In this document: positions 21,787-25,961 of the stretch, in pieces
How the letters are laid out: each line of letters starts with the position of its first letter
Numbering within the stretch: the stretch's first letter is position 1
Source: Caryophanales bacterium
Lineage (GTDB): Bacteria; Bacillota; Bacilli; Bacillales; Bacillaceae_J
Direction of reading: 5' to 3'
Assembly (NCBI GenBank): GCA_012840465.1
Contig: DULJ01000085.1
Location: forward strand, 1-64,000
Length of the DNA stretch: 64,000 nucleotides
Program-made: the position numbers and the translations under genes
The notes under the pieces: generated by a model
Databases searched by the model: none
The model's input: only the letters and a program-made list of their open reading frames with translations
What the model was told of the DNA's origin: nothing

Positions 21787-24216
21787 ATGAACATACAAGA
21801 ATACGAAAATGTTTTATCAATTCATCGGGTACCTGCATCAAAGCTTCGTTCTGAGTTTGAATCAGAAAATTTTTCATTTGAGACAACAGATGATCTTGAA
21901 AAACTGCCCAATGAAATGATTGGGCAGAACCGTGCTGAAAAGGCAATGAATTTTGGACTGACCGTAGAACAATCAGACTACAACTTGTTCGTTGTTGGTC
22001 CTGCAGGTACTGGCAGGATGACGTACACCTTAGATAGTGTTAAAAAGGTTGCGAAGCTACGAGAAGTGCCTACTGATTGGTGCTACGTCTATAACTTTGA
22101 AAATCCAGATATGCCACTAGTAATCTCTTTTCCAGCTGGGATGGGTCAAAAATTCCAACGGGAAATTGAAGTTTTATTAATTGATATAGAACGACTCATT
22201 CGCTCCGCTTTTACAAGTGAAGTATTTGAAAAAGAGAAACGGAGAATACTAGATGAATTTCGGGATGAAATCGAAGAGCTTTGGGAACAGACGGATGCCT
22301 ATGCACTTGATAATCAAATCAAAATAGAACGGACACCTACAGGAATTGAAACAATCCCGCTCCTTTTTGGCCGTCCGGTGGAAATAAAAGAGTTTGAACA
22401 ACTAGCTGACACGAACAAAAAGATGATTAAGGATAGAGAAAATCTAGTTGAGAATAAAATCGATGAAACCATCTATCAAATCCTAAAAATAGAAGACCAA
22501 TTAAGAAAAAAGGTAAATCAATTTATGATGGAAACAGCTGCTAATGCCATTCAGGAGCTTTTTCAACCATTAAGAGAAACTTATAAAGAAAATAAAAAAG
22601 TTCTTGAATACCTTGAAGCCTATTTTCATGATGTCGTTACTCACTTTTCATTTTTTATCGAGGACAAGCCAGAAGATGAGCAGCAAAATATTATGAATGC
22701 ACTGATGGGGTCTAAAGAACAATACCTTCGTCGCTACACGATCAATTTATTTGTCAGCCAAAGAAACTTAAATGGGGCACCAATCATTTATGAAACAAAT
22801 CCAACCTACCATAATTTATTCGGAAAGGTTGAATACCATGGTTCATTGGGAAGTTGGGACACAGACTTCACCTTAGTGAAACCGGGAGCACTGCATCTCG
22901 CCAATGGTGGTTACTTAATCCTCCAAGCTACAGAACTCTTGCAACATCCGAATGCTTGGATTCGTCTAAAAAGAGCCCTGCAAACGGGTAGTATTCAGAT
23001 TGAGAATTTAAATGAGGATAATGGTTTAATTCCAACAAGTGGAATTAAACCAGAGCCGATTCCGTTGAATCTGAAAGTTATTATTATTGGCTCCTATTAT
23101 CTTTATGATTTTCTAGCAGAATTCGATGAGGACTTTCATAAGCTTTTCAAAGTAAAAGTGGAATTTGTGACACTAATGGACAAGGATCAAGAAAACAGCT
23201 GGAAAATGGCCCGTTTTGTGAAAAAATTCGTGGACCAAGAAGGGTTGCTCCCATTCCATCGCAGGGCAATTGCAAAGGTGATTGATTACAGTTCCCGCTT
23301 AGTTGATGAACAATCAAAGCTATCAACAAATTTTCACGAAATCACAAAGGTTTTAGTTGAATCTAGTTATTGGGCAAAGGTGGATAATGAATCTATTGTT
23401 GATGGCCAACACGTCGGAAAAGCGCTATCCGAGAAAGCACTTCGCTCCAATCATGTAACAGAACAGTACCGGGAAATGATTAATAATGGCACGATTATGG
23501 TTGAAACAGATGATTCGCGGATCGGGCAAATTAATGGTCTTGCTGTTCTAGGTACGAGGGATTCGGTATTTGGAATTCCAACGAAAATTACGGCTCAAAC
23601 CTTTGTTGGAAAGAGCGGGATTATGAATATTGAAAGAGAGGCTGCTTTGAGTGGTCAAATTCATAATAAAGGTATGATGATTTTAACCGGCTTCCTTTCC
23701 GGTGAATTTGCAAAAAATCGCCCAATTCCATTATCAGCAAGCATCACCTTTGAACAAACGTATTCAACAATTGATGGTGATAGTGCCTCCAGTACGGAAT
23801 TGTATGTCTTGTTATCTTCGCTCGCCGATGTGCCAATTAATCAAGGCATCGCAGTTACGGGATCAGTAAACCAATGGGGAGAAATCCAATCCATCGGTGG
23901 CGTAAATGAAAAAATCGAGGGCTTTTACCATATTTGTAAAGAGAGAGGCCTAACAGGCAAACAAGGTGTTATCATTCCAAAGCAAAATGTTCAAAATTTA
24001 ATGCTTGAAGATGATGTTGTTGAAGCAGTCAAACAGGATCAGTTCCATATTTGGGCAGTCAGCCATATTGCGGAAGGTATTGAAATATTAACGGGAATTA
24101 GTGCAGGAAATGTTCGAAACGAAAAAGGAAAATATCCTGCAAACACTATTTTTGCAAAAGTTGAAGAACGTTTCAACAAAATGTATGAGTCAACGAAAAA
24201 AATAAAGAATGTATAA
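21787..24216 (+). CDS. Lon-like ATP-dependent protease (AAA_32 / LonH type)
   Basis: 809 residues. The N-terminal half is an AAA_32-type ATPase in which the Walker A reads GPAGTGRMT, with arginine for lysine, and a long coiled-coil insertion occupies ~residues 140-300. The C-terminal ~200 residues are a Lon S16 protease: catalytic Ser in DGDSASSTE and catalytic Lys in GGVNEKIEGF, with VTGSVNQWGEIQSIGG between. It is related to E. coli YcbZ/LonH and is a soluble cytosolic protease with unknown targets. ATG 21787 follows GTGAGGGG. Single gene. Confidence 0.88.
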   Translation: MNIQEYENVLSIHRVPASKLRSEFESENFSFETTDDLEKLPNEMIGQNRAEKAMNFGLTVEQSDYNLFVVGPAGTGRMTYTLDSVKKVAKLREVPTDWCYVYNFENPDMPLVISFPAGMGQKFQREIEVLLIDIERLIRSAFTSEVFEKEKRRILDEFRDEIEELWEQTDAYALDNQIKIERTPTGIETIPLLFGRPVEIKEFEQLADTNKKMIKDRENLVENKIDETIYQILKIEDQLRKKVNQFMMETAANAIQELFQPLRETYKENKKVLEYLEAYFHDVVTHFSFFIEDKPEDEQQNIMNALMGSKEQYLRRYTINLFVSQRNLNGAPIIYETNPTYHNLFGKVEYHGSLGSWDTDFTLVKPGALHLANGGYLILQATELLQHPNAWIRLKRALQTGSIQIENLNEDNGLIPTSGIKPEPIPLNLKVIIIGSYYLYDFLAEFDEDFHKLFKVKVEFVTLMDKDQENSWKMARFVKKFVDQEGLLPFHRRAIAKVIDYSSRLVDEQSKLSTNFHEITKVLVESSYWAKVDNESIVDGQHVGKALSEKALRSNHVTEQYREMINNGTIMVETDDSRIGQINGLAVLGTRDSVFGIPTKITAQTFVGKSGIMNIEREAALSGQIHNKGMMILTGFLSGEFAKNRPIPLSASITFEQTYSTIDGDSASSTELYVLLSSLADVPINQGIAVTGSVNQWGEIQSIGGVNEKIEGFYHICKERGLTGKQGVIIPKQNVQNLMLEDDVVEAVKQDQFHIWAVSHIAEGIEILTGISAGNVRNEKGKYPANTIFAKVEERFNKMYESTKKIKNV

Positions 24217-24220
24217 TGTG

Positions 24221-24253
24221 GGTTACGGGGGGCGTATGAGCGCCCCCGTAACG
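24221..24253 (+). terminator. GC-rich hairpin between convergent genes
   Basis: GTTACGGGGGGCG pairs with CGCCCCCGTAAC around TATGAG. No strong T tract follows on either strand, so it may act as a barrier or weak terminator for both the Lon-like gene and the TusA operon. Confidence 0.6.
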
Positions 24254-24257
24254 AAAT

Positions 24258-24500
24258 CTATTTAGTTACGCGAATATAAAAATATAAATCAGTTCCTTGT
24301 TTTTCCGGTTCGGTTATCAATTCATACCCATGCTTAACAACTTCCTCGGGCACACTGATGAAAGATTGAGGACAATCAGCGATCACTTGTAGTGTTTCAC
24401 CAGTTTTCATTGTTTGTAACGCATCCAGCGTATACATGACTGGGTATGGTCAAGGTTCTCCACGGATATCTAATACAAAGTCTATTGCTTCTTCGTTCAT
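24258..24500 (-). CDS. TusA-family sulfur/selenium carrier with in-frame UGA at the catalytic Cys (candidate selenoprotein)
   Basis: 80 codons on the minus strand from ATG 24500 to TAG 24258, behind a strong GGAGGGTG 7 bases upstream. The product starts MNEEAIDFVLDIRGEP, then codon 17 is TGA (24452-24450), then PYPVMYTLDALQTMKTG. TusA proteins have LDxRGxxCPxP here; the catalytic Cys that carries sulfur is exactly the position of the TGA. All other codons are open and family-like (GETLQVIADCPQSF, then ends in YFYIRVTK). An imperfect stem-loop follows the UGA (24448-24420). The gene starts 22 bases after the YedE-type permease stop, so one operon. I infer selenocysteine at residue 17. A nonsense mutation of TGT/TGC to TGA cannot be excluded; the selA/B/C/D genes are not in this window. 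Confidence 0.75.
24420..24448 (-). promoter_or_regulatory. Candidate bacterial SECIS stem-loop after the UGA
   Basis: In the mRNA, CCAGU (24443-24439) pairs with GCUGG (24429-24425) around a 9-base loop CAUGUAUAC that contains a G. Below a C/A mismatch, further pairs extend to 24448/24420. The apical loop is 12-20 bases after the UGA, slightly closer than the E. coli fdhF element. Only folding and comparison can confirm it. Confidence 0.4.
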
Positions 24501-24522
24501 ATTTTTTCACCCTCCATATAAA

Positions 24523-25770
24523 TTATTGTTTAATAGCAGGTTTGACAATGTAAGTTTCTTTTGGGGCGGGGGTTTTCAACCCTTTTCCATAACGATAATG
24601 CTTTTCCCACCAATTGGATAATAAAAACCATGCAACAAGCAAGCCCATTGTTCCAAACAGCGCCTGATAAGGTCCCCATACCTCAATTAAATTCAATTTA
24701 GGCCATCCTTCTGTTAAAACGCTGTAAAAACCAAGGTGATCCCAGGCGTATGCAAGTACTGTTGCACCAACAATATTCCCAAAACCGACAACCCAAAAGA
24801 GAACCTGACCTTCCATTGCACGGTACATCCAACCGGTTTCACAACCCCCAGCAAGAACGATACCAAGTCCAAATAAAAGACCACCAATAAAAGTACTTGG
24901 TGCTGCTGGTTTAATAACAGCTTCCATTCCAGATTGAAGAAAGATAAATGTAAGCATTACACTTATGCCAATTCCTACAGCTAATGCTTTGGTCATAGTG
25001 GCACGTCCGCTGACCCATAAATCACGAAATGCAGAGGTAAAACAAATTTGCCCTCTTTCTATAAGAATACCAAATCCAGCTCCAAATACCGCTGCAGTAG
25101 CTAATAACGCTTTACCATTTGCAACATATGAAACTAGTATAATAGCAAAAATGAAGGCAATGCCAATCCCAAGATAAACTTGAATATTACTATTTTTGAC
25201 CTGTTTTGGTACGGCTTTACTTAAAGTTGGTTTCTTTCTTTGAAGATTGGGCTTTCCACGCCACCATGTTGTATTAATCACTTTTACTCCTAAGTATGTT
25301 CCAATGCCAGTTGTCACCATGAAAATCCATGAGTGGAAAGAAAACTGTGGGATTCCTGTGAAAAATGCTGCTAAATTACAGCCTAAGGCCAAACGTGCAC
25401 CAAATCCGGCAATAAGTCCACCAATGAAAGCTTGAACTAGACGCCGTTTTTGTTGTGGAACACGAATTTTAAAACTTTTGCCTAGCAAAACGGTAATTAA
25501 GGCACCCGCAAACATTCCAATGATAATCCAACCATCGGTGCGGGTAAAGGTTGTTCCGTTCATGGTGACAAGATTAAAATAAGCCCAATCAGAAATATCG
25601 ACACCGAAAAATTGAAGTAAATGGCCACCGAATCGGGTAAACTCACCTGTTACTGCCCATACAGTTCCGGTCAATGCAAAATATAAAGCACTAAGTACCC
25701 CAGCTAATCCAACTGCAACATAAGGATTCCAGTAATTCACAAAGACTTTCTTATAAAATGATTTAAACAC
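24523..25770 (-). CDS. YeeE/YedE family permease (selenium/sulfur transport)
   Basis: 415 residues with about ten membrane helices in two related halves. The hallmark cysteines are in LALGCNLAAFF and LAGGCETGWMYRAMEGQ, on which thiolate or selenium species are thought to relay. YeeE of this family takes up thiosulfate; YedE has been linked to selenium metabolism by genome comparison. The start is GTG 25770, with GGAG about 10 bases upstream. The TusA-family gene follows 22 bases downstream, a common pairing in which the soluble carrier receives the imported sulfur or selenium. Confidence 0.88.
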   Translation of the reverse strand: MFKSFYKKVFVNYWNPYVAVGLAGVLSALYFALTGTVWAVTGEFTRFGGHLLQFFGVDISDWAYFNLVTMNGTTFTRTDGWIIIGMFAGALITVLLGKSFKIRVPQQKRRLVQAFIGGLIAGFGARLALGCNLAAFFTGIPQFSFHSWIFMVTTGIGTYLGVKVINTTWWRGKPNLQRKKPTLSKAVPKQVKNSNIQVYLGIGIAFIFAIILVSYVANGKALLATAAVFGAGFGILIERGQICFTSAFRDLWVSGRATMTKALAVGIGISVMLTFIFLQSGMEAVIKPAAPSTFIGGLLFGLGIVLAGGCETGWMYRAMEGQVLFWVVGFGNIVGATVLAYAWDHLGFYSVLTEGWPKLNLIEVWGPYQALFGTMGLLVAWFLLSNWWEKHYRYGKGLKTPAPKETYIVKPAIKQ

Positions 25771-25961
25771 TACGTTATCACTCCTTACTCATTTCTAAAT
25801 CTTAATCCAATTCCATGTGTATTAACATATCTTATAATTATAATTAATAATTTTTATTTGTCGATAAAAATGCACTGTGTTATGGGCCAGAGTTCCCGAC
25901 TCGTGACCCACATTGTCCAATAATTACCCACTATTCCTCTTTTTGAATAACCTTTATGATA

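Follow-up and report, generated by a model that had tools for sequence, protein, structure and literature searches.

A probable selenocysteine form of the TusA-family protein YedF paired with the YedE transporter in Bacilli

The closest described counterpart of the gene analysed here is YedF/FdhU (NF008242) of Escherichia coli and Campylobacter jejuni, a single-domain protein of approximately 80 amino acids with the TusA fold and the motifs GEPxPYP and DCPQS, whose gene lies next to yedE/fdhT. In C. jejuni, FdhTU play a part in how selenium is acquired or used (PMC6682613), and a link with selenium has been described for a SirA-like protein since 2008 (PMC2432076) and, under the name YedF, since 2015 (PMC5322559). 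A transporter and a TusA-fold partner from the same superfamilies also form the thiosulfate uptake system YeeE/TsuA with YeeD/TsuB, in which the catalytic Cys of YeeD binds thiosulfate and bears sulfur modifications, including a probable persulfide (PMC11073785). The sulfur carrier TusA has the same fold and CPxP site (3lvj, 1dcj), and long YedF proteins (TIGR03527) combine a TusA-like N-terminal domain with a DsrE domain and are selenium-linked (PMC5322559). Selenocysteine (Sec) is already inventoried in a YeeE/YedE selenoprotein with the motif GUxSG (PMC13188914), and SelD (UxxK), which acts in selenium metabolism, likewise contains Sec.

The yedE-yedF locus described here, located in a 64,000-nt stretch of DNA (the window), differs from each of these systems. 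E. coli YedF and the Cys relatives have Cys where the window gene has a UGA, very probably a Sec codon, together with a SECIS hairpin. YeeE/YeeD serve a sulfur pathway with a Cys catalytic residue, and the window pair misses the TsuA and TsuB sequence models, while TusA acts in a tRNA thiolation relay and the window protein, unlike long YedF, has no DsrE domain. In the known Sec-YeeE/YedE the Sec is in the transporter, whereas here a transporter of the same family is the Cys form and the soluble partner would carry Sec. SelD, which is present in the source genome, is an enzyme unrelated to YedF.

A sequence-only reading of the window had described an 80-codon minus-strand frame with a strong ribosome binding site and a single TGA at codon 17, and re-reading of the DNA agrees: from 24500 to 24258 (-) the gene reads MNEEAIDFVLDIRGEP-TGA-PYPVMYTLDALQ...RVTK-TAG, the TGA is the sole in-frame stop, and GGAGG at 24515-24511 lies 10 nt ahead of the ATG (Table 1). 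The proposed TusA-family membership was confirmed and narrowed to the YedF subfamily, as the product, with U read as C, scores 68.6 bits against PF01206 TusA (cut-off 28.6) and 101.1 bits against NF008242 YedF (cut-off 79). Because the NF008242 cut-off is passed, the protein is specifically a YedF; it does not reach the TusA equivalog model PRK00299 (36 bits vs cut-off 78), the TsuB/YeeD model NF041048 (25.2 bits vs cut-off 147.5) or the long-YedF model TIGR03527 (24.8 bits vs cut-off 110). The Cys expected of a YedF at the CPxP site is replaced by UGA in the window gene, which is accordingly classed as a Sec variant of YedF. An AlphaFold2 model (pLDDT 87.5) superposes on E. coli TusA or the YeeD part of YeeE-YeeD; four of its five top matches have an rmsd of 1.0-1.3 Å, this range applying to two of three YeeD chains, and the YeeD catalytic Cys corresponds to U17. 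The complexes matched in fold are YeeE(TsuA)-YeeD(TsuB) and IscS-TusA. Sec17 and Cys43 are both invariant in the protein alignment (A2). Translation could in principle restart downstream of the UGA, for example at Met22, yielding a short protein that lacks the catalytic site, and Schinkia does have an ATG at codon 22; codon 22 is, however, Ile in most Sec relatives, and residues 10-16 (LDIRGEP), which lie upstream of the UGA and follow a good ribosome binding site, are strongly conserved, making a restart exceedingly improbable.

Table 1 Features of the yedE-yedF locus in the window.
Feature	Position	Strand	Description	Model or basis
yedF	24258..24500	(-)	80-aa TusA-superfamily protein; residue 17 predicted to be Sec (RGEP-U-PYP), residue 43 an invariant Cys (ADCPQS)	
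In-frame UGA (predicted Sec codon), codon 17	24450..24452	(-)	CPxP cysteine position	
SECIS	24415..24436	(-)	UGUA-(U bulge)-ACGC-UGGAU-GCGU-UACA; core 4-bp stem 24431-24428 / 24422-24419; loop UGGAU 24427-24423	
yedF ribosome binding site GGAGGGTG	24508..24515	(-)	Within the 22-nt gap between the yedE stop and yedF	
yedE/fdhT	24523..25770	(-)	Membrane transporter of the YeeE/YedE type (415 aa) in its Cys form; leads the operon	NF033796, PF04143
Candidate promoter TCGACA-16-TATAAT	25837..25864	(-)	Upstream of yedE	Consensus match only
G+C-rich inverted repeat	24222..24252	(.)	Between yedF and the convergent gene 21787-24216	Read from sequence

Relatives were sought in one genome per species across 84,980 species, using patterns drawn from one protein that distant Sec forms may escape, and 67 YedF genes were recovered. 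Alignment at codon 17, a check proposed in the sequence-only reading, placed TGA (52 genes) or TGC/TGT (15 genes) at exactly that codon, giving 53 TGA genes with the window. The TGA genes come from Schinkia, Calidifontibacillus, Aneurinibacillus, Brevibacillus, Tumebacillus, Siminovitchia, Litchfieldia, Mesobacillus, Robertmurraya, Neobacillus, Cytobacillus and other genera, and this breadth excludes the strain-only nonsense mutation that had been named as a refuting outcome. Among named relatives Schinkia azotoformans LMG 9581 is closest (YedF 93% identical), and the same TGA codon is present in all four genus genomes searched and in a fifth genome from the family. The family sequence noted between the TGA and the TAG is indeed kept: median dN/dS after the UGA is 0.044 between TGA genes (39 codons), indicating strong purifying selection, and over these 39 codons the window differs from its two nearest relatives by 7-10 silent and no replacement changes. 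The YedE tree requires three Sec/Cys changes, which may represent one gain and two losses. The two Cys genes of one clade within the Sec group (Oceanobacillus, Cohnella) belong to genomes without detected SelB or tRNA-Sec; the group's remaining Cys gene is from Aneurinibacillus, in a genome that retains SelB and tRNA-Sec. A sample of 299 genomes drawn from the phylum yielded nine matches, with TGA in the source genome only, so that among the genomes searched the Sec form is seen only in Bacilli-like ones. Relatives in plasmid records are all below 60% identity and are labelled yedF wherever a feature was listed. The TusA-like paralogues in the genus (L021, L022 and L023) keep the motif Cys, and a TGA reported for L022 falls outside the motif.

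The loop of the SECIS hairpin begins 22 nt past the UGA. A 4-bp stem with a UGGAU-type loop and an unpaired pyrimidine below the stem can form in all 53 TGA genes, and all four core stem pairs can form in none of the 15 Cys genes. The underlying codons GCG-CTG-GAT-GCG are almost fixed, with GCG at the two Ala codons in 48/53 and 52/53 genes and CTG at the Leu codon in 53/53; in yedE of the same genomes, GCG accounts for 18% of Ala and CTG for 13% of Leu codons, and under this usage the stem would arise by chance in an A-L-D-A-L stretch in ~0.9% of genes. Compensatory replacement of G-C by A-U occurs in the Schinkia group and Tumebacillus flagellatus, where an Ala to Thr change (GCG to ACG) comes with a silent switch from CTR to TTR that keeps the pair, and in one further locus (L098), where Ala to Val (GCG to GTG) is offset by a silent switch from GCG to GCA. 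We infer that these three events are separate, as the YedE tree places them apart among genes with GCG. Published rules for bacterial SECIS elements specify a loop of 3-9 nt, an upper stem of 4-16 bp, a distance of 16-37 nt from the UGA, a G within the first two loop positions and an energy of <=-7.5 kcal/mol (PMC13188914). The yedF hairpin lies within the loop, stem, G-position and spacing limits (UGGAU, 4 bp, 22 nt), and its energy is borderline and varies with the stretch folded (-6.6 to -7.4 kcal/mol for the window hairpin alone, -9.7 for a 48-nt stretch). Over the 48 nt that follow the UGA, folding energy is only modestly below that of synonymous shuffles (mean z -0.7), a weak signal. With the first 12 nt left out to mimic, crudely, the cover of a ribosome, folding predicted the stem (four pairs each >0.5) for 52 of the 53 Sec genes and for no Cys gene. 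The upper stem is short, and support for the SECIS comes from codon conservation and covariation, not raw stability. The bare in-frame stop is the one point in favour of a pseudogene, a sequencing error or a strain-specific nonsense mutation; such readings were rejected and have next to no probability given the identical TGA in 52 further genes of many genera, the dN/dS value after the UGA and the compensated SECIS.

The source genome (138 contigs, rated 99.91% complete) contains the selenocysteine machinery that the sequence-only reading had proposed to look for and whose absence would have counted against it: tRNA-Sec with anticodon TCA (UCA) and SelB; next to the latter lie a LysR-type regulator, SelD and SelA, these three named from their sequence and their place at selB. 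Across the relatives, SelB is present in 34 of 35 TGA genomes, the exception being a fragmented MAG with tRNA-Sec, and a tRNA-Sec match is missing in one other TGA MAG (L081), which has SelB. Among the 15 Cys genomes, eight have both SelB and tRNA-Sec and seven have neither; genomes that use Sec can thus have a Cys-YedF, and the role of the protein does not require Sec. With a SECIS and Sec machinery present, there is no need to treat UGA as a generic sense codon. SelB carrying Sec-tRNA-Sec would bind the hairpin 22 nt past the UGA and insert Sec at the CPxP position. The central proposal of the earlier reading, that this UGA is read as Sec, is very likely correct in view of the SECIS, the machinery and the conservation, and on these sequence grounds yedF is very probably a selenoprotein gene.

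Other selenium-related genes were observed in the same genome. SelD is itself encoded by a UGA gene (TKAGUGCKIG; L024 10848-11822 (-) and upstream) with a 7-bp hairpin ~33 nt after the UGA, and standard ORF calling of selD begins after the Sec. Two formate dehydrogenase alpha genes have an in-frame UGA and GGUCU-loop hairpins (L100, G000:C92:8417-10441; L101, G000:C54:39005). Since selD and the two formate dehydrogenases join yedF, the genome holds at least four UGA genes. A rhodanese-domain protein encoded ~3 kb from tRNA-Sec (L009 5708-6778) resembles MnmH (tRNA 2-selenouridine synthase), which suggests a second use of selenium.

The window YedE scores 571.7 bits against NF033796 (cut-off 350), and tblastn with this protein found a yedE match just upstream of yedF in 67/67 loci. 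The two matches are at most 117 nt apart in 66/67 loci, with a slight overlap in L075, and the distance is 329 nt in Siminovitchia fortis (L082). The candidate promoter region of yedE can be aligned in loci L033, L034 and partly L035, and promoter-scan matches were no more numerous than in shuffles. The inverted repeat downstream of yedF, absent from the terminator-scan output, is probably a terminator shared with the convergent gene, and an Rfam search of window positions 20-30 kb returned no match. Two further elements were observed upstream of yedE. A hairpin, TGGGTCACGAGTCGGGAACTCTGGCCCA, lies at 25882-25909 (-) in the window, its core being single copy in the source genome, and two diverged copies occur upstream of yedE in L034. 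A palindrome, TTATCGATAA, occurs upstream of yedE in Neobacillus and Cytobacillus loci (e.g. L063 and L051), mostly 120-210 nt away, and is matched at >=9/10 positions in 22 of 70 upstream regions vs 2.6 in shuffles; it is a candidate operator that the LysR-type regulator encoded next to selB might bind.

The best overall explanation, to which we assign a probability of roughly 0.75, is that Sec-YedF is a selenium carrier paired with YedE. This role is drawn from the protein family, the operon and the YeeE/YeeD analogy, and the likeness of the window pair to YeeE/YeeD in its working is suggested by fold and operon. By that analogy, a somewhat less secure but still favoured route is that YedE carries a selenium compound across the membrane and delivers it to YedF, where the Sec17 selenolate would accept the Se atom as a selenenyl or perselenide adduct and pass it on; the invariant Cys43 would perhaps help and may resolve the adduct, and YedF would hand Se to SelD or guard it from toxic side reactions. 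YedE could also export rather than import.

Alternatively, Sec could be inserted into a redox or detoxification protein that delivers no Se to SelD, with a Sec17-Cys43 selenenylsulfide pair reducing selenite, polysulfide or peroxide. The invariance of both residues agrees with such a function, redox enzymes are believed to make up the majority of selenoproteins (PMC13188914), and a role in redox was proposed for YedF by Lin et al. (PMC5322559). That proposal leaned largely on the C-terminal DsrE domain, which is missing from the 80-aa YedF; the TusA fold with its CPxP site is moreover a sulfur-carrier design and a transporter is paired with yedF in every locus, and we consider a redox function unlikely. 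Less probable again is that the UGA serves mainly as a selenium-responsive switch, with the chemistry of Sec over Cys secondary, such that without selenium translation ends after 16 residues and YedF is off. A UGA with a SECIS is necessarily selenium dependent, yedF sits in a selenium operon and relatives with Cys forms exist, but the UGA occupies the one catalytic position, which a pure switch would not need, and a switch is compatible with the selenium-carrier explanation rather than exclusive of it. Under the preferred reading of Sec-YedF as a selenium carrier, full-length YedF needs Sec, and the acquisition pair would therefore be whole only in cells that already have some selenium; this requirement would act as a positive-feedback gate that makes the selenium supply self-reinforcing. 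It is a tentative suggestion, slightly short of even odds, that in Bacilli the pairing of YedE with Sec-YedF provides a carrier that selects Se against a large excess of sulfur and an autocatalytic Se supply.

The available text of PMC2432076 and PMC5322559 makes no mention of Sec in YedF or the SirA-like protein, and TusA, SirA and YedF are not among the families of prokaryotic selenoproteins tabulated in 2022 and 2026, in which Sec-YedE is listed (2026: PMC13188914). A search of accessible literature, drawn largely from outside the subscription journals, returned no description of Sec in YedF in the text covered. Sec-YedF thus looks like an unlisted selenoprotein family, as the Sec variant of a known protein, and an existing RefSeq annotation of it is possible. 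Standard gene calling tends to truncate or overlook genes with an in-frame UGA such as that of yedF. If the assignment is true, the selenoprotein inventory gains the TusA/YedF family. Natural Sec/Cys pairs of YedF, including those within Aneurinibacillus, could show what is gained by having selenium in the place of a carrier's sulfur. Specific high-affinity selenium transport in prokaryotes and the delivery of Se to SelD are still listed as open questions in the 2026 review (PMC13188914), and Sec-YedF beside YedE is a concrete candidate for selenium uptake or delivery in cultured Bacillaceae such as Schinkia azotoformans.
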